The notes under the pieces were generated by a model. It worked only from the letters and a program-made list of their open reading frames with translations, made no database searches and was not told where the DNA came from. Positions 1-7,014 of a stretch of 64,000 nt of DNA are shown here, one piece after another. A program made the position numbers and the translations under genes. Location of the stretch: positions 1 through 64,000 of the forward strand of contig NZ_WSTB01000015.1 of the NCBI RefSeq assembly GCF_009789235.1, written 5' to 3'. Position 1 is the first letter of the stretch. Every line of letters starts with the position of its first letter. The DNA is from Flavobacterium hydrocarbonoxydans. Its GTDB lineage: Bacteria > Bacteroidota > Bacteroidia > Flavobacteriales > Flavobacteriaceae.

Positions 1-7
1 TTTTCAT
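1..7 (-). CDS. GG-leader peptide precursor, cut by window edge
   Basis: Only ATG AAA A is inside the window, but the start codon is preceded by the same short AT-rich spacer that precedes the other array members. It sits 28 nt past the stop of the next gene, the usual spacing here. I infer that the array continues to the left. Confidence 0.6.
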
Positions 8-34
8 AATTTATTTAATTAATGGTTAATTGAA

Positions 35-190
35 TTAGTCTAACATTTTGTCGATTACAATACTGATTGTCAATCCGATGATGATTCCCGGAGTGATTCC
101 ACCTTCTACAGCTTGTAATTGGTTGTCATTTAATTCTGCAACAGCTACTTTGTTGAAAGCTAACTTGTTGTTTACGTTTTGTTTTTTCAT
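35..190 (-). CDS. GG-leader peptide precursor 1 (51 aa, Cys-free core)
   Basis: The first 31 residues form the array leader (MKKQNVNNK, LAFNKVAVAELN, then QLQAVEGG). After the double glycine the core is ITPGIIIGLTISIVIDKMLD, which is hydrophobic, amphipathic and free of Cys. The leader matches the KLxxNKxxVxxLNxxQLxxVxGG pattern of Bacteroidota class I lanthipeptide and other natural-product precursors, but without Cys the core cannot form a lanthionine. The codons for QNV (CAA AAC GTA) give the best pairing with the small-RNA candidates at 2349 and 3814. Function is unknown; exported peptide or bacteriocin is an inference. Confidence 0.85.
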   Translation of the reverse strand: MKKQNVNNKLAFNKVAVAELNDNQLQAVEGGITPGIIIGLTISIVIDKMLD

Positions 191-218
191 AATTATTTTT
201 AATTAATGGGTTAAGGGA

Positions 219-374
219 TTAGTCTAACATTTTGTCGATTACGATGTAGATCGTAAGTCCGATTACGATTCCCGGAGTGATTCCACCTTCTACAGCTTGT
301 AATTGGTTGTCATTTAATTCTGCAACAGCTACTTTGTTGAAAGCCAACTTGTTGTTTACGTTTTGTTTTTTCAT
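219..374 (-). CDS. GG-leader peptide precursor 2 (51 aa, Cys-free core)
   Basis: The leader is identical to that of precursor 1. The core after GG is ITPGIVIGLTIYIVIDKMLD, which differs from precursor 1 at only two residues, so the two are recent duplicates. The gene lies 28 nt upstream of precursor 1 with no visible terminator between them, which supports one polycistronic transcript. There is no purine-rich ribosome site, as is normal in Flavobacterium. Confidence 0.85.
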   Translation of the reverse strand: MKKQNVNNKLAFNKVAVAELNDNQLQAVEGGITPGIVIGLTIYIVIDKMLD

Positions 375-397
375 AATTATTTTTAGTTAATGGTTAA

Positions 398-553
398 TTA
401 ATCTAGCAATTGGTCAACAAGAATACTTAGTGCAATGGTAACTGCAACTGAGATTATACTTCCTCCGTTTACGTCTTGCAACTGATTGTCATTCAATTCT
501 GCAACAACTGCTTTTCTAAAAGCCAGTTTGTTGTTTGGGTTTTGTTTTTTCAT
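398..553 (-). CDS. GG-leader peptide precursor 3 (51 aa, Cys-free core)
   Basis: The leader starts MKKQNPNNKLAFRKAVVAELN and ends QLQDVNGG. The core is SIISVAVTIALSILVDQLLD. The same core is encoded again at 1097-1252 with almost no nucleotide change, which shows duplication within the array. A Ser/Thr-containing hydrophobic helix with an acidic C-terminus and no Cys is typical of this subgroup. Confidence 0.85.
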   Translation of the reverse strand: MKKQNPNNKLAFRKAVVAELNDNQLQDVNGGSIISVAVTIALSILVDQLLD

Positions 554-577
554 AATTATTTTTAGTTAATGGGTTAA

Positions 578-733
578 TTATTCAAGTAATTGATCAACGA
601 TAATGCTTACTGCAATAGTAACTAAAACCGAGAGTAAGCTTCCTCCGTTTACGTCTTGTAACTGATTGTCATTCAATTCTGTAACAACTGACTTTCTAAA
701 AGCCAGTTTGTTGTTTGGGTTTTGTTTTTTCAT
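578..733 (-). CDS. GG-leader peptide precursor 4 (51 aa, Cys-free core)
   Basis: The leader has SVVTELN in place of AVVAELN and ends VNGG. The core SLLSVLVTIAVSIIVDQLLE is a diverged relative of the cores at 398 and 1097. Substitutions are conservative (I/L/V), so a hydrophobic helix is retained. The product is unmodified or modified by an unknown enzyme; nothing in the core identifies the chemistry. Confidence 0.83.
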   Translation of the reverse strand: MKKQNPNNKLAFRKSVVTELNDNQLQDVNGGSLLSVLVTIAVSIIVDQLLE

Positions 734-750
734 AGTTATATATTAGTTGG

Positions 751-906
751 TTATAAATCAACTGCTATTGTTATTAATAGAAGACTCGTTGTTCCTACAT
801 ATAAACCCGATGTTCCTCCATTTACATCTCGTAATTGATTCTCATTCAATTCTGCAACTGCTGCTTTATTGAAAGCAAGCTTGTTATTTGCGTTTTGTTT
901 TTTCAT
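751..906 (-). CDS. GG-leader peptide precursor 5 (51 aa, Thr/Ser-rich core)
   Basis: The leader is MKKQNANNK followed by LAFNKAAVAELNENQLRDVNGG. The core is TSGLYVGTTSLLLITIAVDL. It has six Thr/Ser in 20 residues but no Cys, so dehydration is conceivable but ring closure to Cys is not. This core is unlike its neighbours. Confidence 0.82.
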   Translation of the reverse strand: MKKQNANNKLAFNKAAVAELNENQLRDVNGGTSGLYVGTTSLLLITIAVDL

Positions 907-916
907 TGGTTTAGTA

Positions 917-1069
917 TTAAAACTGAATTAATATGGATAGTGTGGCGATACTCAATGGAAGTAATACTGAATCAATTCCACCTTCTACTGCTTGTAATTG
1001 GCTGTCGTTTAATTCTGCAACAGCTACTTTGTTAAAAGCTAACTTGTTATTCATGGTTTGTTTTTTCAT
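917..1069 (-). CDS. GG-leader peptide precursor 6 (50 aa, Cys-free core)
   Basis: The leader begins MKKQTMNNK, a small variation on the array consensus, and ends QLQAVEGG. The core is IDSVLLPLSIATLSILIQF, strongly hydrophobic with one Pro and no Cys. An in-frame second ATG at codon 6 exists, but the first ATG aligns with all other members. Confidence 0.82.
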   Translation of the reverse strand: MKKQTMNNKLAFNKVAVAELNDSQLQAVEGGIDSVLLPLSIATLSILIQF

Positions 1070-1096
1070 GGTTTTAATTATTTAATTAGTTAATAA

Positions 1097-1252
1097 TTAG
1101 TCAAGTAATTGGTCAACAAGAATACTTAGTGCAATGGTAACTGCAACTGAGATTATACTTCCTCCGTTTACGTCTTGTAACTGATTATCATTCAATTCTG
1201 CAACAACTGCTTTTCTAAAAGCCAGTTTGTTGTTTGGGTTTTGTTTTTTCAT
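1097..1252 (-). CDS. GG-leader peptide precursor 7 (51 aa), duplicate of precursor 3
   Basis: Leader and core (SIISVAVTIALSILVDQLLD) are identical at protein level to the gene at 398-553. The DNA is almost identical too, so the duplication or gene conversion is recent. Confidence 0.84.
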   Translation of the reverse strand: MKKQNPNNKLAFRKAVVAELNDNQLQDVNGGSIISVAVTIALSILVDQLLD

Positions 1253-1260
1253 AGTTAGGT

Positions 1261-1419
1261 TTAGTTATGTTCTAATTGACTAAGAAGTAAGCCTATTGCA
1301 AAACCTATTACGATTCCAGGAGTGATTCCACCTTCTACAGCCTGTAATTGGTTGTCATTCAATTCTGCAACAGCTACTTTATTGAAAGCTAACTTGTTGT
1401 TTGCGTTTTGTTTTTTCAT
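1261..1419 (-). CDS. GG-leader peptide precursor 8 (52 aa, Cys-free core)
   Basis: The leader is MKKQNANNK...QLQAVEGG. The core begins ITPGIVIGFAIG, shared with precursors 1 and 2, and ends LLLSQLEHN. The frame is open upstream to 1497, but the start at 1419 is the one that aligns with every other leader, so the extension is rejected. The stop lies only 8 nt from the start of precursor 7. Confidence 0.84.
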   Translation of the reverse strand: MKKQNANNKLAFNKVAVAELNDNQLQAVEGGITPGIVIGFAIGLLLSQLEHN

Positions 1420-1435
1420 GTAAATAGAAATTCTA

Positions 1436-1600
1436 TTAAACCAGTAATAACAAAGTTTGAACACAACAGCAGCCGGTGCAGGTATCTCCTCCGCCATCTA
1501 TCGATGTACCGCCATTTATATTTTGTAATTGATTTTCGTTCAGTTCTGTAACCGCTACTTTATTAAAAGCAAGCTTGTTGTTTGGGTTTTGTTTTTTCAT
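1436..1600 (-). CDS. GG-leader peptide precursor 9 (54 aa, CTGCCC core)
   Basis: The leader ends QLQNINGG. The core ends GDTCTGCCCVQTLLLLV and contains four Cys plus several Thr and Ser, the composition expected of a class I lanthipeptide. It is related to the cores at 2660 and 3034. Lanthionine formation is an inference from composition and leader type; no LanB or LanC gene is in the window. Confidence 0.86.
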   Translation of the reverse strand: MKKQNPNNKLAFNKVAVTELNENQLQNINGGTSIDGGGDTCTGCCCVQTLLLLV

Positions 1601-1632
1601 GGGTTTTGTAGTTGTGGGTTTTTAGATAATTA

Positions 1633-1791
1633 TTAAAGTGCCTGGTAGATTAAATATGTAATACTTACCACTACTGCTACACTGCAGGCTGGACCAGTAC
1701 CACCATCTATCTCGTACATTTGATTATCATTTAGTTCGATAACAGCTACTTTATTAAAAGCAAGCTTGTTGTTTGGGTTTTGTTTTTTCAT
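1633..1791 (-). CDS. GG-leader peptide precursor 10 (52 aa, single-Cys core)
   Basis: The leader has VAVIELNDNQMYEIDGG, the most divergent GG end among the MKKQN members. The core TGPACSVAVVVSITYLIYQA (plus a final L) has one Cys five residues after GG, with a Thr at its first position. A single ring is possible at most. Confidence 0.82.
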   Translation of the reverse strand: MKKQNPNNKLAFNKVAVIELNDNQMYEIDGGTGPACSVAVVVSITYLIYQAL

Positions 1792-1818
1792 TTTATAATG
1801 ATTAATTAGTTATTAATT

Positions 1819-1965
1819 TTAAAGTAAAGTCAGAATATAGATGGTAATCGGAATGCTTCTTATAGAATCAATACCTCCATTTATCTCTTGTATCTGACTA
1901 TCATTCAGTTCTGTAACTGCAGCTTTGTTAAAAGCAAGTTTGTTGCCTGGGTTTTGTTTTTTCAT
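1819..1965 (-). CDS. GG-leader peptide precursor 11 (48 aa, Cys-free core)
   Basis: The leader is MKKQNPGNK...QIQEINGG. The core IDSIRSIPITIYILTLL is the shortest in the array and Cys-free. This is the first gene of the left block; about 500 nt containing small-RNA candidate A separate it from the right block. Confidence 0.82.
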   Translation of the reverse strand: MKKQNPGNKLAFNKAAVTELNDSQIQEINGGIDSIRSIPITIYILTLL

Positions 1966-2335
1966 GTTGATGTGTTTTAAATTATTTACATTTATTTTGA
2001 ATGAATGTTCTTAACAGGAACAATCACTAAAAAAAATCTAGTCTTTCCATTTAATTTTGAGCATACCAATCCTCATGCTATAAACCTGAACTGAAAAATC
2101 AGTCAACTTTTAGCGGGATTTAGGTATACTGCTATTTACTAAAATGATTAGCTACAGTTTATTCGATAAACATTCGTTTATAATCTTTTAATAAAGATGT
2201 CATCTGTTTTGGCCGCCGGACAGTATTAACCATATAGGCAAATACGTCCTTAGCCAAAGATTTCATTTTGAGCTAATAAGTGCTGTATAGAAGAAGTACT
2301 CTTGAAGTTGTAAAAACCATAATGAAAATGTTTTT
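1966..2335. other. Intergenic stretch inside the peptide array
   Basis: No open frame with coding character is visible on either strand here. Parts of its right end resemble 3720-3800, which precedes the second small-RNA copy. The duplicated block therefore includes some sequence upstream of the promoter. I found no clear minus-strand promoter for precursor 11. Confidence 0.5.
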
Positions 2336-2343
2336 TACTTTTG
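2336..2343 (+). promoter_or_regulatory. Candidate -7 element (TACTTTTG), small RNA A
   Basis: TACTTTTG matches the Bacteroidota -7 consensus TAnnTTTG. A well-spaced -33 TTG is not clear; the nearest TTG ends 25 nt upstream. The same octamer followed by the same CAGAAG occurs at 3801. Confidence 0.5.
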
Positions 2344-2348
2344 CAGAA

Positions 2349-2427
2349 GCAATCTCCGGCTAACTTATAGCATTACGTTTTGTTATTATTCCTTATAAAA
2401 AAGAGTCTCCACACTCTGTTTTATTTT
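2349..2427 (+). ncRNA. Candidate small RNA A (about 80 nt)
   Basis: The sequence starts just after a -7 element and ends with a hairpin (AGAGT, loop CTCCAC, ACTCT) followed by a T-rich tract, an intrinsic terminator. It lacks a plausible open frame. A diverged copy with the same promoter, terminator loop and central ATTACGTTTTGTTA (2372-2385) lies at 3814-3896. Twelve nucleotides of that core are complementary to codons 3-7 of precursors 1 and 2, and eight or nine to most other MKKQN leaders. An antisense regulator of the peptide operon is the inferred role. Confidence 0.5.
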
Positions 2428-2478
2428 ATGTAAACATTGTTGTCAAACCATCGACAATACCGAATGTTCGATCTGTTT

Positions 2479-2646
2479 TTACACCACCGTTAACCAGCTA
2501 CCGTATCCAGTAGTGATAATGATCGTTCTTATCAAATTTCTTGATTCTTCAATACCACCGTTGATATTGTTCAATTGATTTTCATTCAATTCTGCAACAG
2601 CTGCTTTATTAAAAGCGAGCTTGTTGTTTGAGGATTGTTTTTTCAT
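2479..2646 (-). CDS. GG-leader peptide precursor 12 (55 aa, Cys-free core)
   Basis: The leader is MKKQSSNNKLAFNKAAVAEL, then NENQLNNINGG. The core starts IEESRNLIRTIIITTGYG and ends SWLTVV. It is the only core with a Trp and an Arg pair, and has no Cys. The frame is open upstream to 2679, but the start at 2646 aligns with the other leaders. It is the last gene of the right block. Confidence 0.82.
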   Translation of the reverse strand: MKKQSSNNKLAFNKAAVAELNENQLNNINGGIEESRNLIRTIIITTGYGSWLTVV

Positions 2647-2659
2647 CTTCAGCTGTAAA

Positions 2660-2830
2660 TTACATTTGTTGTAATACAAGGCTTATTTGTAAGCAGCAGC
2701 ATCCAGTACAGTTGTCTCCACCTACAATTGTAGATAAACCTCCGTTGATTTCATTCAGCAAATTGTCATTTAATTCTGCAACAGCTACTTTATTAAAAGC
2801 AAGCTTGTTATCCATGGTAGTTTTTTTCAT
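2660..2830 (-). CDS. GG-leader peptide precursor 13 (56 aa, CTGCCC core)
   Basis: The leader starts MKKTTMDNK and ends EINGG. The core ends GGDNCTGCCCLQISLVLQQM. The four-Cys CTGCCC motif with neighbouring Thr and Ser is shared with the genes at 1436 and 3034. It sits directly downstream of an SGCFC-type gene (2838-3020), an arrangement repeated in the next pair. A class I lanthipeptide is the most likely type. Confidence 0.86.
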   Translation of the reverse strand: MKKTTMDNKLAFNKVAVAELNDNLLNEINGGLSTIVGGDNCTGCCCLQISLVLQQM

Positions 2831-2837
2831 TTTATAT

Positions 2838-3020
2838 TTAGTTTACTTGTTTGATAATGGTTAATTTTAAAGAAACAGGAACGCAAAAACATCCTGAAAT
2901 TGGATCCGTAAGTTCGTCTCCTTTAACGCCTCCATTCACATTTTTTAATTGATGTGAATTCAATTCTGTAACAGCTACTTTATTAAAAGCAAGCTTGTTG
3001 TCTGGGTTTTGTTTTTTCAT
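2838..3020 (-). CDS. GG-leader peptide precursor 14 (60 aa, SGCFC core)
   Basis: The leader is MKKQNPDNK...QLKNVNGG. The 29-residue core begins VKGDELTDPISGCFCVPV and ends SLKLTIIKQVN. Two Cys are spaced by one residue, with Ser and Thr upstream. It is nearly identical to the product of 3208-3390 (D/E, LK/FQ and V/L changes). Confidence 0.86.
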   Translation of the reverse strand: MKKQNPDNKLAFNKVAVTELNSHQLKNVNGGVKGDELTDPISGCFCVPVSLKLTIIKQVN

Positions 3021-3033
3021 CTGAATATCAAAA

Positions 3034-3201
3034 TTACATTTGTTCCAATACCAGGCTTATTTTTAAACAACAGCATCCTGTGCAGTTATCTCCTCCAATA
3101 ATGGTAGATCCACCATTGATTTCATTCAATGAATTATCATTTAATTCTGTAACATCTGCTTTTTTAAAAGCCAGTTTGTTCGATATGATTATCTTTTTCA
3201 T
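3034..3201 (-). CDS. GG-leader peptide precursor 15 (55 aa, CTGCCC core)
   Basis: The N-terminus is MKKIIISNKLAFKKADVTEL, the most divergent leader of the array, but it still ends EINGG. The core ends GGDNCTGCCCLKISLVLEQM, close to that of 2660-2830. No other start fits better; the gene is too short to be found by length alone and was recognised by homology to its neighbours. Confidence 0.85.
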   Translation of the reverse strand: MKKIIISNKLAFKKADVTELNDNSLNEINGGSTIIGGDNCTGCCCLKISLVLEQM

Positions 3202-3207
3202 GTGTTT

Positions 3208-3390
3208 TTAATTTAATTGTTTGATAATGGTTAATTGAAACGAAACAGGGACACAAAAACATCCTGAAATTGGATCCGTAAGTTCTTCTCCTTTAACGCC
3301 TCCGTTAACATTTTTTAATTGTTGTGTGTTCAATTCTGTAACAGCTACTTTATTGAAAGCCAGCTTGTTGTTTGGGTTTTGTTTTTTCAT
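3208..3390 (-). CDS. GG-leader peptide precursor 16 (60 aa, SGCFC core)
   Basis: This is the first gene of the array in the direction of transcription. The leader is MKKQNPNNK...QLKNVNGG and the core carries DPISGCFCVPV like precursor 14. Genes at 3208 and 3034 form a pair that is repeated by those at 2838 and 2660. A candidate promoter lies about 110 nt upstream (3509-3535). Confidence 0.86.
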   Translation of the reverse strand: MKKQNPNNKLAFNKVAVTELNTQQLKNVNGGVKGEELTDPISGCFCVPVSFQLTIIKQLN

Positions 3391-3508
3391 TTTTAGTTAA
3401 ATTTTAATTAATAGTGCTTTTTTTCCGAATCAGAGATTCAAATAATCATACTGTGACTAAAATAAATTTCAGCCAGGTTCCGTGAAAATCAAGATTTTCT
3501 AAATGGAT

Positions 3509-3535
3509 CAAACTTATCTTTCAAATAATACGCAA
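3509..3535 (-). promoter_or_regulatory. Candidate promoter of the peptide array
   Basis: Read on the minus strand, TTG is followed after 16 nt by TAAGTTTG, which fits the Bacteroidota TTG / TAnnTTTG promoter pattern with slightly short spacing. The predicted start leaves a leader of roughly 110 nt before precursor 16. Confidence 0.4.
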
Positions 3536-3800
3536 ATGAGCGCTAACGAGTTCTGGAATATTTCCAGGCCGGTTTATTTAAAAAATCTTTTAATGCTCTT
3601 TTTTAGCTTATAAAACAACGATTTAGATTGTTTTACATCCTGATTGTCATCAATTTTAAAAATTGAATTTTTACTTAGTCTTTTTGGACTGGATTGATTA
3701 CCCGTTGTCATAAACTTTGTTTTTAAAAGCTAACAAGTAATGCTTTGTAGAAGTACTTTAGAAATTGTAAAAAAAAAGTTTTATGAAACACATTTTTTTT

Positions 3801-3808
3801 TACTTTTG
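3801..3808 (+). promoter_or_regulatory. Candidate -7 element (TACTTTTG), small RNA B
   Basis: This is the same octamer and downstream CAGAAG as at 2336. The nearest upstream TTG is too far for a standard -33 element, so promoter strength is uncertain. Confidence 0.5.
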
Positions 3809-3813
3809 CAGAA

Positions 3814-3896
3814 GTAATTTCTGGCAATCTTGTTAGGTATTACGTTTTGTTAAATTACCTTATAAAACAGAGTCTCCACACTCTGTTTTATTTTTT
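3814..3896 (+). ncRNA. Candidate small RNA B (about 80 nt)
   Basis: This is the second copy of the unit at 2349. It ends in a perfect 10-bp hairpin (AAAACAGAGT at 3864-3873, loop CTCCAC, ACTCTGTTTT) and a T-run. The central ATTACGTTTTGTTA (3839-3852) is identical in both copies and may sit in a loop closed by GGTA and TACC. The flanks differ more than the core, the promoter and the terminator, which argues for selection on the transcript. No coding frame is seen. Confidence 0.55.
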
Positions 3897-4006
3897 CGGA
3901 TTTGAAAGTGGCTACTCATTTTCATTTTCACCACCTTTTCAAAACCCAATTGAAACAATCTGATATTCGATTTATTTCTGAGACAAAGTAAAATCTTTTT
4001 TTCCTG

Positions 4007-4050
4007 TAAAAAAAACGAAAAACCCCCATATTTATAAAATAAGGGGGTTT
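4007..4050 (-). terminator. Intrinsic terminator of the TPR/AraC regulator gene
   Basis: The stem AAACCCCC / GGGGGTTT lies just past the stop of the regulator gene. On the minus strand a long T-rich tract follows it. Confidence 0.8.
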
Positions 4051-4103
4051 CTATACGAAATTAAATACTTGTTTTTCAGGTAGTTATGCTAAAATAACAT
4101 GTT

Positions 4104-5915
4104 TTAACTTTCTTTCATTTGATTTATCTTTTTTATGTAAATAGAGGGGCTAATACCGGTTGCAATCTTAAAATATTTGGTAAATGACTCTGGACTTTTA
4201 TACCCAATTTCTTCTCCAATTGCATTAATTGAATACGATCTTAGCTTCGAATTGTTCTTCAATTCTATAATAATATAGTTGATTCTTAACTCATTTACGT
4301 ACGAACTAAAGTTTTTATCCAATTCACTATTTACAATTTTAGACAAATAAGCTGTATTGGTTTTAAGCCTTTTAGCGACATTATGCAGCGTAAAGTCTTG
4401 TCTCAGGAACAATTTCTTCTCTTCAAGCTTGATAAGTTTGTCTAAAATCTCTGTTCTTGTTTCATCTTTTATAATAAAATGAGGATTAGTCGTTTCTTCT
4501 CCTTCATTACTATTATCCTGAAATACTTCCTCATTTACATCCTGATCAATCGTTATAATAGAATTAGCAACAAGTTCTGTCTCAAATTCTTCTGCCTGGT
4601 GATTATCGATGTCCTCTTCAATACTTTCATTTTTACTGATTAGAACATTATTCTGGAGGTTTTCCTCGCTATTTTTAACGGGTTGATTTTCGAAATCTTT
4701 AATTTTGAGCAATAACTCCTCAAATTTTACCTGATTTTGAATACTTTCTCTTCTCCTTCTAATAAAGAATCCAATAAAAAGAAGAATTAATAGACTCGTT
4801 AAACCCAATAAAATCCATTTCTGATTTTTTTGCTCTGTTTCACGCTCTTTACTTTCGTTGATATCTATTTTGTGTAAATGATCTATTGCTTCAATTCGTT
4901 TTTCACCAATTTTTTTTGATTTGTCAATAAACTGACTGTAGTAATAATTTGATTCCGAAAAATTTTCAATAGATTTATAGTTTTCAGCTAATAGATAATA
5001 GATCTCTGATAAATTTTCGATAGGTATATTAGATGCTTTTTCGTCAGCTACTATGGACTTTAAAAGGGAAATAGCTTTATTATACTCTTTTTGGATTGAA
5101 TATAATTTAGAAATTTTAATGTTTATCTCCGTAATTAAAGTATTACTTTGAATTTTTTGAGCAATAAGTAAGGCTTTATCAAAGGTTATTTTAGCGTTCG
5201 AATAGTCCTTATTATCAATGTAAATTAAGCCTTGTTGAGACAAAAAATGGATTTCATGCTCTTTTAGGTTACTTTTTTGTGATTCTTCAATACCGCTTTT
5301 TATAAAAATATGGGCTGAATCCTGTTTATTCAAATTAATATAGGTTTTTACAAGACCTAATTTTATATCCAGTTTACTAACATCATCAAATCCTTTTTTG
5401 TTAAGGTTTTCTTTGTAGATTTTTAAAGCGTCCTGATATCTTTCTAATTCATAAGCAATACTTCCTTTTTTAATCGAAATATAATTGTAAGCGTTGTTAT
5501 CCTTTAATTTCTTTGATAAAGTGGAGCATTCTTCATATAAATTAAGTGCTTCCTGGAAGTCAAATTCATTAAAGAGATAATTCGCTTTATTGATTTTGAA
5601 AACCATTTCCAGCTTTTCATTATCTATATCATTGGCTTTATATATTGCTTTATCAAAATAATAAAAAGCACTGTCCTTTTGAGTTAAGGCACCACTCAAA
5701 TCGGCTAAAAAACAATAAGCTCTTGCTTCATCTTCCTCTAAATCATTTGATTTAGAGTACTTTAGTAATTTATGGCTGTAATATTTTGCTTTTGTGGGAT
5801 TGGTATATAGCAACGTTTTAACAGAATCTTTATAAGTCTCTATTTTATTCTGAGAAAAGGCAAAATTCATCAAAAATAATAAAATCAGACTGCAGGCCTT
5901 AGTTAATCCATTCAT
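4104..5915 (-). CDS. Membrane-anchored TPR sensor with C-terminal AraC-type HTH
   Basis: The 603-aa product has a signal peptide (1-22), a helical TPR-like region up to about residue 345, one transmembrane segment (about 367-385) followed by RRRR, an acidic linker, and an AraC-family HTH domain at about 510-595 (GEEIGYKSPESFTKYFK). The order implies a periplasmic TPR sensor and a cytoplasmic DNA-binding domain in one chain, a design known in Flavobacteria. It lies between the peptide array and a divergent GG-leader peptide gene, so control of these peptides is a reasonable inference. The ligand is unknown. Confidence 0.88.
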   Translation of the reverse strand: MNGLTKACSLILLFLMNFAFSQNKIETYKDSVKTLLYTNPTKAKYYSHKLLKYSKSNDLEEDEARAYCFLADLSGALTQKDSAFYYFDKAIYKANDIDNEKLEMVFKINKANYLFNEFDFQEALNLYEECSTLSKKLKDNNAYNYISIKKGSIAYELERYQDALKIYKENLNKKGFDDVSKLDIKLGLVKTYINLNKQDSAHIFIKSGIEESQKSNLKEHEIHFLSQQGLIYIDNKDYSNAKITFDKALLIAQKIQSNTLITEINIKISKLYSIQKEYNKAISLLKSIVADEKASNIPIENLSEIYYLLAENYKSIENFSESNYYYSQFIDKSKKIGEKRIEAIDHLHKIDINESKERETEQKNQKWILLGLTSLLILLFIGFFIRRRRESIQNQVKFEELLLKIKDFENQPVKNSEENLQNNVLISKNESIEEDIDNHQAEEFETELVANSIITIDQDVNEEVFQDNSNEGEETTNPHFIIKDETRTEILDKLIKLEEKKLFLRQDFTLHNVAKRLKTNTAYLSKIVNSELDKNFSSYVNELRINYIIIELKNNSKLRSYSINAIGEEIGYKSPESFTKYFKIATGISPSIYIKKINQMKES

Positions 5916-6102
5916 ACTTGTTTATTTTTAAGTAAAGCATTAACAATCAATGCGTTAGATTTGTATTTAGGTAGGCTATTTTTATAAATCTGGGGATTAT
6001 GGGCTTTTTTTTAAGGTTATTTTGAGATAGTTTTACAAAGCAATTCAACGCAAATCAAAACTCATTTAAAACAATTCAAAACCCTTTTAAAACCCAAAGA
6101 TT

Positions 6103-6288
6103 ATGAAAAAAATTACAATAAAAAAATTAGTGTTAAAAAAAACTAATATCGTAGAACTTAATTCAGATCAAGCAAGACAAATTGTAGGTGGAGGAGACGA
6201 AGTTTCAGGAGCAATAAATGATACAGTAGCTGCAGTAGCAAACCATACAAATCCACGAAGTATGTATTCCATGTTTTGCCCTGCTTAG
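6103..6288 (+). CDS. GG-leader peptide precursor, divergent type (61 aa)
   Basis: The leader begins MKKITIKKLVLKKTNIVELN and ends QARQIVGGG, a Bacteroidota class I lanthipeptide-like leader different from the MKKQN family. The core begins DEVSGAINDTVAAVAN and ends with a Cys close to the C-terminus (MFCPA). The gene is divergent from the TPR/AraC regulator and is followed by a strong terminator. The upstream TAGATTTG at 5956-5963 could be its -7 element, leaving a leader of about 130 nt. Confidence 0.8.
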   Translation: MKKITIKKLVLKKTNIVELNSDQARQIVGGGDEVSGAINDTVAAVANHTNPRSMYSMFCPA

Positions 6289-6308
6289 TTAAGCTAAACC
6301 ATAAAAAC

Positions 6309-6344
6309 AAAAAGAGCGGCTCAATGGAGTCGCTCTTTTTATTT
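6309..6344 (+). terminator. Intrinsic terminator of the 6103 peptide gene
   Basis: AAAAAGAGCG pairs with CGCTCTTTTT, with an extra inner stem around AATG, then a T-rich tract. The gene is therefore monocistronic. Confidence 0.85.
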
Positions 6345-6393
6345 ATATAAGTTTTAAAGGCAAAGCTCTTTAAACCTTGAGTATTTAATCCTC

Positions 6394-6942
6394 TTAAAAA
6401 TACACTCTCACAAAAGGCATAAAAGCTGACCCATACAAACTTCTGTCATCATTAAACAAAACATCGTAGCGCCCGCCTATAGTTACATTGCCGGTTCTGT
6501 AACCAGCTCCGAGATACAAAGCCGTATTCCAGTAATTATCTGAAAAATCACCTCCTTCAAAGTTATAATCAGTGTTAACACGGACTTGCTCAAGCTCGGC
6601 AGATAATTGAATTTGCGGAATCGGATTTACTAGTCCTACCAAACTTCCTCCATATATAAAAGAGCTATAATTGTTTTTCGAAGACAAATACCCAAATTGC
6701 AATCCAACACCCACTGCCACAATCTCGTTTACATTATAAATTGCACTTGGCATAACCGAAATATCGGTGTATCCGGAACCAAATCCCAAACCAAGTCCTC
6801 CTCCAAATTGTACTTTATCCCAAAAATGATTACTGTTATCGATTACATAATTTTCCTGTTGAGCGAAGCTAAAATTCGAAAATAAAGCTATCAAAATCAC
6901 AAAAAATGATTTGAAAACGATTGAAATTTGATTTTTCTTCAT
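6394..6942 (-). CDS. Small outer-membrane beta-barrel protein
   Basis: The 182-residue product starts with MKKNQISIVFKSFFVILIAL and a signal peptide ending FSFAQ. The mature part has alternating Gly/aromatic beta strands (GGGLGLGFGSGYTDISV, YLGAGYRTGNVTIGGRYDVL) and ends in an aromatic residue (FVRVYF), as outer-membrane barrels do. The start at 6942 was chosen because it gives the signal peptide. The gene is divergent from sucA; no functional link is evident. Confidence 0.75.
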   Translation of the reverse strand: MKKNQISIVFKSFFVILIALFSNFSFAQQENYVIDNSNHFWDKVQFGGGLGLGFGSGYTDISVMPSAIYNVNEIVAVGVGLQFGYLSSKNNYSSFIYGGSLVGLVNPIPQIQLSAELEQVRVNTDYNFEGGDFSDNYWNTALYLGAGYRTGNVTIGGRYDVLFNDDRSLYGSAFMPFVRVYF

Positions 6943-7014
6943 AGTTGAGTCTATTTTTAACAAATTTTTACGTAAAAGTACGTAAAAAAAAGATTTAAAT
7001 AATATCGATTGTTG

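Follow-up and report, generated by a model that had tools for sequence, protein, structure and literature searches.

A candidate multi-product LanB-LanJA peptide locus without LanC in Flavobacterium hydrocarbonoxydans

Introduction

What does a bacterium make from a long row of small genes that share a leader and differ in almost everything behind it, and which enzymes serve so many different substrates? This question is raised by a precursor array at the start of contig NZ_WSTB01000015.1 (here C7) of Flavobacterium hydrocarbonoxydans. The window, i.e., the whole stretch of 64,000 nucleotides that was analyzed, begins with the first base of this contig, and the array runs off the contig end. 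An original prediction, made from the letters of the window, had described at least 17 genes with one leader ending in two glycines (GG) and many cores, served by one modification and export machine. The array, the gene content around it, the absence of LanC, the LanJA homology of a neighboring dehydrogenase and the recurrence of the arrangement in relatives can be read from the sequence itself. Taken together, we consider it fairly probable that this is a multi-product locus for ribosomally synthesized and post-translationally modified peptides (RiPPs) with a class I dehydratase and without a cyclase, in which one LanB-LanJA machine would act on many cores to give mostly linear peptides with dehydrated or D residues.

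The precursor array and its continuation on a second contig

Sixteen complete open reading frames (ORFs) for GG-leader precursors of 48-60 residues lie on the minus strand between positions 1 and 3390 (35-190 to 3208-3390), arranged in a first block of 11 genes (35-1965) and a second of five (2479-3390). The ORF lists and the matches to the NCBIfam model lant_leader_L1a (NF038153) agree on these genes, and the edge fragment and the two blocks were found as had been predicted. In a genome-wide profile scan, NF038153 was above its curated cut-off for all 16, and the whole genome held 22 such matches: the 16 in the window, five on contig C41 and one solo copy (6103-6192, plus strand). When nine of the 16 were run against NCBIfam, all nine matched NF038153 with 34.8-47.0 bits (cut-off 22), which bears out the assignment of the leaders to the family of Bacteroidota class I lanthipeptides. 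The motif NKLAF-x12-17-GG occurred 16 times within 1-3400, not at all in the remaining window and not once in 200 mononucleotide shuffles of 1-3400. An Rfam scan of window positions 1-7000 gave no match.

All genes of the array lie on the minus strand and match NF038153. In the reading direction the array starts with the precursor at 3208-3390 (core VKGEELTDPISGCFCVPVSFQLTIIKQLN, two cysteines), followed in the second block by those at 3034-3201 (STIIGGDNCTGCCCLKISLVLEQM, four cysteines), 2838-3020 (VKGDELTDPISGCFCVPVSLKLTIIKQVN, two), 2660-2830 (LSTIVGGDNCTGCCCLQISLVLQQM, four) and 2479-2646 (IEESRNLIRTIIITTGYGSWLTVV, none). The first block opens with the gene at 1819-1965 (IDSIRSIPITIYILTLL, no cysteine) and continues with 1633-1791 (TGPACSVAVVVSITYLIYQAL, one cysteine) and 1436-1600 (TSIDGGGDTCTGCCCVQTLLLLV, four). 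The cores of all genes further on are free of cysteine: 1261-1419 (ITPGIVIGFAIGLLLSQLEHN; a longer mechanical ORF, 1261-1497, starts upstream), 1097-1252 (SIISVAVTIALSILVDQLLD), 917-1069 (IDSVLLPLSIATLSILIQF), 751-906 (TSGLYVGTTSLLLITIAVDL), 578-733 (SLLSVLVTIAVSIIVDQLLE), 398-553 (SIISVAVTIALSILVDQLLD again), 219-374 (ITPGIVIGLTIYIVIDKMLD) and 35-190 (ITPGIIIGLTISIVIDKMLD). At 1-7 (minus strand) the start of a further precursor gene (ATGAAAA) is cut by the contig end and may continue as a tail fragment found at the end of C41.

This second contig (223,295 bases) ends in five more complete precursor genes and the tail fragment (L029:18342-19295; L029 coordinates below refer to C41). As the two edge fragments could belong to one gene, the array comprises at least 22 genes (16 + 5 + 1), so that the predicted array was real and its count too low. 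The break between C7 and C41 is explained by near-identical repeats at both ends. Their join is supported by the unbroken order of regulator, array, HlyD, C39-ABC transporter, LanB and LanJ on single contigs of F. poyangense (L035) and F. terrae (L039), and by the genome G182 (L106), in which regulator, array, HlyD, C39-ABC transporter and LanB share one contig, without LanJ.

The 21 complete genes encode 15 distinct leaders and 16 distinct cores. Leader DNA is on average 80% identical among them, at lowest 66%, and GG ends the leader in all 21. Thus, the predicted diversity of cores was found, while the leaders turned out to be similar rather than identical. Over the 210 pairs of leaders the mean proportion of synonymous differences (pS) was 0.46 and that of nonsynonymous differences (pN) 0.14, indicating that the leader is translated and under purifying selection. 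The cores are 17-29 residues long and hydrophobic, with a grand average of hydropathy (GRAVY) of 0.42 to 1.88. Cysteine is absent from 15 of the 21, which therefore cannot form lanthionine. Two cysteine-free groups occur in several copies, ITPG in six (pN/pS 0.046/0.258) and SIIS in three (0.104/0.374); with pN below pS and copies amplified, both look maintained and not decayed.

Modification and export genes beside the array

On C41, the array is followed on the same strand by a HlyD-type adaptor (L029:16932-18086, minus strand; PF13437 above cut-off), a C39-peptidase ABC transporter (L029:14780-16969, minus strand; PF03412, PF00664 and PF00005 above cut-off; TIGR01193 473 bits, under its curated cut-off of 524), a full-length LanB dehydratase of 1042 residues (L029:11631-14759, minus strand; PF04738 E 4e-124, PF14028 E 4e-67) and an ADH_N-type dehydrogenase (L029:10538-11626, minus strand) that starts 4 bp past the lanB stop. 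A LanB and a C39-peptidase ABC transporter had both been named as genes to look for to the left of position 1, and the single LanB and the exporter adjoining the array agree with the notion of one machine for many products. This LanB is the only PF04738 match in the genome and can be aligned to the solved structures 9g04 and 5ehk. The blocks FFIRYxDxxGHHxRFR, RELQRYG and HMxCNR, to which we ascribe a catalytic role from work on NisB, are invariant in the ten of 13 array LanBs that were aligned, i.e., those other than G381 (split over two stretches), G594 and G761.

A LanC, also to be looked for there, is missing: the whole genome (99.98% complete) holds no PF05147 match. The radical SAM enzyme named as an alternative was dropped as a route since none was among the seven neighboring C41 proteins scanned with Pfam, no genome-wide scan having been made; likewise, no YcaO cyclodehydratase was found among these seven, to which that scan was limited.

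Two further features on C41 were noted. A 117-residue protein without a Pfam or NCBIfam match (L029:10167-10520, plus strand) is encoded convergently to lanJ, and several relatives have it downstream of LanB as well. A second C39-peptidase region lies at G000:C41:129163-131573.

The dehydrogenase is a LanJA homologue

By homology, the dehydrogenase belongs with the LanJA enzymes. Among 72,556 plasmid records, its leading matches include a gene of pMRC01 (30.7% over residues 1-361, E 2e-38) which is annotated only as medium-chain dehydrogenase/reductase (MDR) family and follows lanM, a C39-ABC gene and a DUF4135 gene; we take it to be ltnJ, and pMRC01 to be the lacticin 3147 plasmid. Other leading matches are a Pseudanabaena gene by LanM and Nif11 precursors, a gene of Pediococcus pMD136 by a HopA1-family gene and an unannotated Azospirillum record. 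In an alignment with these matches, the dehydrogenase and LtnJ have in common a loop S-[NA]-T-[SA] replacing the glycine loop of an ordinary MDR enzyme. Among 398 Flavobacterium genomes, with up to five candidates scored per genome, LanJA-type genes at E <= 1e-100 occur in seven, the next best match being at 3.5e-26; five of these genes lie in the array operon, and the other two adjoin a split LanB and come from genomes that have no LanC. At E <= 1e-40, three of 397 genomes of the family have the gene, i.e., F. hydrocarbonoxydans and two of another genus with the same operon. The LtnJ-type loop and the E-value gap set the enzyme apart from the other MDRs of the genus, and a generic MDR function was set aside on the same grounds (4.1e-101 against 3.5e-26). 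An AlphaFold model shows an MDR fold (mean predicted local distance difference test, pLDDT, 74; predicted template modeling score, pTM, 0.72; best Foldseek match 3wlf, E 2e-17, template modeling score, TM, 0.62), and adds only the fold. The features expected of a LanJA are thus present: full-length homology to LtnJ, the loop, and a RiPP dehydratase alongside, the latter in ten of the 13 related loci described below.

LanJA enzymes are described as zinc- and NADPH-dependent; in class II lanthipeptides, they convert dehydroalanine (Dha) to D-Ala (PMC11519912, PMC7268733). NpnJA works independently of a leader on other substrates and reduces a non-cyclized variant of lacticin 481, and a dehydrated GLP-1 peptide was also reduced with it (PMC12328550); as NpnJA acts on non-cyclized substrates, a linear substrate appears plausible for the family. 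D residues made by LanJ enzymes have been placed in class II and class V lanthipeptides (PMC11519912), and LanJA-family genes in class I clusters have been mentioned as a possibility (PMC7268733).

LanJA also occurs in G049 (L143) and G355 (L144), there accompanied by one precursor and a split LanB (737 + 296 and 737 + 288 residues); neither genome has a LanC. By gene content, these loci are a second LanB-LanJA design.

The operon recurs in relatives

LanB of the F. hydrocarbonoxydans type is present in seven named Flavobacterium records. In a survey of the 398 genomes, with up to two candidates scored per genome, identity to this LanB was 63-100% in eight and at most 39% in the others. Four of the eight (G385, F. 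hydatis; G344, sp. 1355; G390, a metagenome-assembled genome, MAG; G098, F. terrae) are counted once with the named records, giving 11 array genomes. G594 and G761, from another genus of the family, carry the same operon and bring the total to 13 loci. The comparison between strains called for by the original prediction accordingly shows an array that recurs with LanB and exporter in Flavobacterium relatives, with varying cores. Precursors were found in 11 of the 13 loci, and none was seen in the stretches examined of the MAG (L038, a short contig) and G594; in F. supellecticarium, G381 and G761 they lie beyond LanJ on the opposite strand. Ten of the 13 loci have LanJA, the exceptions being F. 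hydatis, the MAG and G182.

In a LanB tree of 32 rows, the 13 loci formed one clade with a Shimodaira-Hasegawa-like approximate likelihood ratio (SH-aLRT) support of 100. Its sister group (86) consists of four full-length LanBs. Within the clade, a grouping of the 11 Flavobacterium loci against G594 and G761 received a support of 42. The four sister LanBs adjoin a LanC-like gene, two according to hidden Markov models and all four according to weak tblastn matches. The same LanC queries found nothing in 17 stretches covering the 13 clade loci, G049 and G355. The simplest history would be that LanC was lost and LanJA gained before the clade arose, with LanJA then lost two or three times; given the midpoint root and weak backbone of the tree, it is inferred only.

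LanC was also sought genome-wide in 13 genomes, i.e., the 11 array genomes, G049 and G355 (G594 and G761 were left out). It was absent from five (F. hydrocarbonoxydans, F. hydatis, G182, G049 and G355) and present in eight. In G185 and G098 it lies far from the array operon, beside a second LanB. Across 249 Flavobacterium genomes, 65 LanB loci in 46 genomes were counted, omitting seven second LanB-gene fragments as well as LanC matches that were partial or below cut-off; 31 loci lie within 10 kb of a LanC and 34 do not. Of these 34, whose contig has no LanC up to 10 kb away, four encode a full-length LanB, all of the array family, and 30 one of less than 800 residues. No LanC above cut-off was found in 19 of the 46 genomes. 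The array operon is therefore one of several LanC-less LanB designs in the genus, and LanB with LanJA is rarer.

Two other gene groups came up in this survey. At L115, L116, L117, L119 and L120 a split LanB lies beside proteins of 563-568 residues; four of these loci also show a short GG ORF, and L116 contains two more. They look like yet another LanB design in Flavobacterium. In G185 a second lant_leader_L1a group (G185:C15:40385-51940) lies on another contig than the LanB-LanJA operon.

A proposed route to linear peptides

On the strength of the gene content we propose the following route. The array of at least 22 genes at the ends of C7 and C41 would give rise to precursors that have the GG leader in common. 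The one full-length LanB would read this leader and dehydrate Ser and Thr of many different cores, and LanJA would reduce Dha, and perhaps dehydrobutyrine too, to D-Ala and D-Abu, respectively. The C39-ABC transporter with HlyD would then cleave after GG and export the peptides; GG leader ends and a C39-ABC transporter with HlyD are what is expected for GG peptides exported in this way. That these enzymes act on the array cores, and in this order, is inferred. Most products would be linear, since the genome lacks a LanC and most cores lack cysteine, and the six cores with cysteine may carry no rings either. The outcome would be mostly linear, hydrophobic peptides of about 20 residues with dehydro and/or D residues that are not lanthipeptides, with a presumed membrane-directed use, either bacteriocin-like or in signaling. 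The ordinary class I lanthipeptides to which the leader family had pointed do not fit the genome-wide absence of LanC, the cysteine-free majority of cores or a LanJA gene directly behind lanB. As to origin, chances are about even that the locus represents a ring-free branch, in which an ancestral class I system swapped LanC for LanJA and some 20-25 precursors feed one LanB-LanJA pair that yields linear D-amino-acid peptides.

A number of observations weigh against such a route. LanJA is not indispensable, being missing in three of the 13 loci, and F. hydatis and G182 combine cysteine-rich cores with neither LanC nor LanJA. Absence of LanC is not special by itself, since 34 of 65 LanB loci in the genus have none nearby, and in six of the 11 array genomes a LanC in a separate APH-HopA1-LanC cluster could act in trans. 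Apart from RodJA, the known LanJA enzymes reduce Dha only (PMC11519912), and Thr outnumbers Ser in ten of the 21 cores, while two of the 21 have no Ser. Confidence in the dehydrogenase model is moderate, the best of five models reaching a pLDDT of 74 and the other four 52-57, and the tree was made by a quick method, with SH-aLRT support only, long-branch warnings and midpoint rooting on a weak backbone. Six of the 21 cores do contain cysteine, and in relatives such cores are common (17/19 in G182, 12/12 in sp. 1355, 19/25 in F. supellecticarium, 5/5 in F. poyangense and 5/5 in HTF), often as T[TS]PxC, a pattern suiting a thioether ring.

Alternative explanations

It is unlikely, in our estimate, that the locus makes ordinary class I lanthipeptides after all, the cysteine-containing cores being cyclized by an unrecognized cyclase, by LanB, spontaneously or by a LanC in trans, and the cysteine-free cores being decayed copies. 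T[TS]PxC, in which we see a T-P-x-C pattern like that of nisin ring B, is the commonest core type in G182, F. hydatis, F. poyangense and F. supellecticarium, and T[TS]PxC or SSPAC cores were found in F. hydatis, G182, F. poyangense, sp. 1355, HTF, F. supellecticarium and G761. The search pattern requires NKL and thus undercounts precursors, by at least one in L035 and by three in L039. The ITPGI cores of F. hydrocarbonoxydans look like TTPxC after loss of the cysteine, and CTGCCC cores recur in F. hydrocarbonoxydans, F. poyangense and G182, and as CTGCVC in G381. The LanCs of the six array genomes fit this explanation as well, but F. hydrocarbonoxydans itself, F. hydatis and G182 have no LanC at all. 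Moreover, the ITPG and SIIS cores are kept and amplified, and cysteine-free cores also prevail in G185 (3/4) and G381 (13/16). These two cysteine-poor arrays and that of F. hydrocarbonoxydans all have LanJA, and two loci without LanJA have cysteine in 19 of 21 cores; this link was not used as proof because five LanJA loci are cysteine-rich.

A LanC in trans was rejected as a general answer on account of the three array genomes without any. It is also disfavored by the setting of the six strong LanCs, which sit in an APH-HopA1-LanC cluster with its own precursor-like protein of 450-590 residues. APH kinase, HopA1 lyase and LanC lie in a row at L153, L154, L155, L156, L157, L160 and L158, and six of these seven loci adjoin such a repetitive protein (MSKI..VENGAVYEGYD or similar). 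The clusters, found in six of the 11 array genomes, some of which also have a further LanC, appear to be class V-like; Pfam was applied to the F. poyangense copy, and the others were judged by gene order and appearance.

In a quite improbable alternative, LanB and the dehydrogenase are inactive or have other substrates, and the peptides leave the cell without modification to serve as class II type bacteriocins or signals. The hydrophobic cores would suit such a role. Of the nine scanned precursors, four are above the cut-off of TIGR01847 'bacteriocin', a general model of GG leaders, and one narrowly exceeds that of TIGR03949, a class IIb bacteriocin model (21.9 against 21.5 bits), but all nine score far higher with NF038153. 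In addition, precursors accompany LanB and exporter in 11 of the 13 clade loci, the motif blocks of LanB are invariant, and the adjacent LanB and LanJA do not agree with a class II bacteriocin, which has no modification enzyme.

An assembly artefact, in which repeat collapse has inflated or misjoined the array, can be practically dismissed: C7 and C41 do end inside near-identical repeats, and the array is likewise cut by a contig end in F. hydatis, sp. 1355 and HTF, but the copies differ in their cores, in relatives up to 25 precursors lie in one stretch (19 in G182, 25 in F. supellecticarium, 16 in the one-contig genome G381), and collapse would make an array appear smaller, not larger.

Comparison with known systems

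Bacteroidota class I lanthipeptides such as pinensin and the PedA15 peptides of Pedobacter lusitanus (PMC12328550) have a LanB and the same LxLxKx5L-type leader, often with a GG end and with a C39-family protease in the cluster (PMC7268733). The F. hydrocarbonoxydans locus differs in its lack of LanC, mostly cysteine-free cores, LanJA and a very large array. It has the leader (NF038153 in 21 of 21) and the LanB of a class I lanthipeptide cluster and lacks LanC and, except in six of 21, cysteine in the cores; because LanC was tested for and is missing, it does not count as such a cluster and rather works like the first half of one.

The dehydrogenase resembles the LanJA enzymes LtnJ (lacticin 3147), NpnJA and RodJA in its full-length homology to LtnJ, with the loop of the latter, and in an adjoining RiPP dehydratase. 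The enzymes described serve class II LanM systems (PMC11519912, PMC12328550), unlike the class I LanB without cyclase here. Prochlorosins and cyanotins (ProcM, SyncM) likewise combine one enzyme set and one leader with diverse cores, some of them cysteine-free (PMC7268733), SyncM having up to 79 substrates (PMC9872173). They are cyanobacterial class II LanM systems with Nif11 leaders, whereas the Flavobacterium locus has a class I enzyme, and its precursor genes are clustered head to tail.

Goadsporin and thiopeptide systems are not known to have a LanC either. These use LanB-type dehydration in azole peptides (PMC10676384), with split LanB and YcaO azoles in contrast to the full-length LanB and LanJA found here, where no YcaO was among the seven neighbors scanned. 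One component of bicereucin is nearly ring-free. In this class II system, D residues likewise arise by dehydration and reduction, through the LanJB BsjJB (PMC11519912), i.e., by LanM with a flavin-type reductase unlike LanB with LanJA.

LanB, LanJA and GG export are known, and the combination of LanB and LanJA without LanC feeding large arrays appears to be new. A literature search, mostly without subscription papers (the Pedobacter lusitanus work included), revealed no LanB-LanJA system without LanC and no such Flavobacterium arrays, and a further paper reports no LanB in Bacteroidales (PMC10352776). A large lanthipeptide survey located clusters by the LanC domain (PMC7268733), so that a LanB system without LanC would escape it.

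If the proposal is true, these would be the first D residues made after LanB in the literature seen, and the outcome of LanB would be reduction and not cyclization. LanB and LanJA acting as proposed would provide a natural, leader-guided, encoded route that places D-Ala and D-Abu in many unrelated linear sequences, which could be put to use in the production of peptides that resist proteases. For a natural comparison, there are the three relatives that lack LanJA. The locus also raises the question of what use a bacterium has for a library of linear hydrophobic peptides with D residues.

Upstream elements, regulator and solo precursor

An upstream element (3728-3894, minus strand) whose DNA matches that preceding the array in L035, L106 and L039 stands before the second block. 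A second copy between the blocks (2271-2427, minus strand) is 77% identical to it over 167 columns. As the element before the second block is repeated before the first, each block probably has its own promoter; a terminator-like hairpin was spotted by eye in the repeated element. At the array head lies a 45-residue ORF (3574-3711, minus strand) with counterparts in F. poyangense (L035) and G182 (L106), for which no NCBIfam match was found and the comparison with G182 gave a pS of 0.48 and a pN of 0.14. A 35-residue ORF of uncertain coding status occupies the matching position before the first block (2159-2266, minus strand).

Further upstream, a putative regulator with TPR and an AraC-type helix-turn-helix is encoded (4104-5915, minus strand); F. 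poyangense, G182 and F. terrae have such a protein at the corresponding position. Divergent from this regulator gene lies that of a solo precursor of the array leader family (6103-6288, plus strand; NF038153 match), with counterparts at L035 2372-2542, L106 6575-6736 and L039 2597-2794. Near its end the motif PRSMYSMFC occurs in the window, L035 and L106, and PRTIFTTC in L039, whereas the array cores vary; the solo precursor may be a signal peptide for the regulator.

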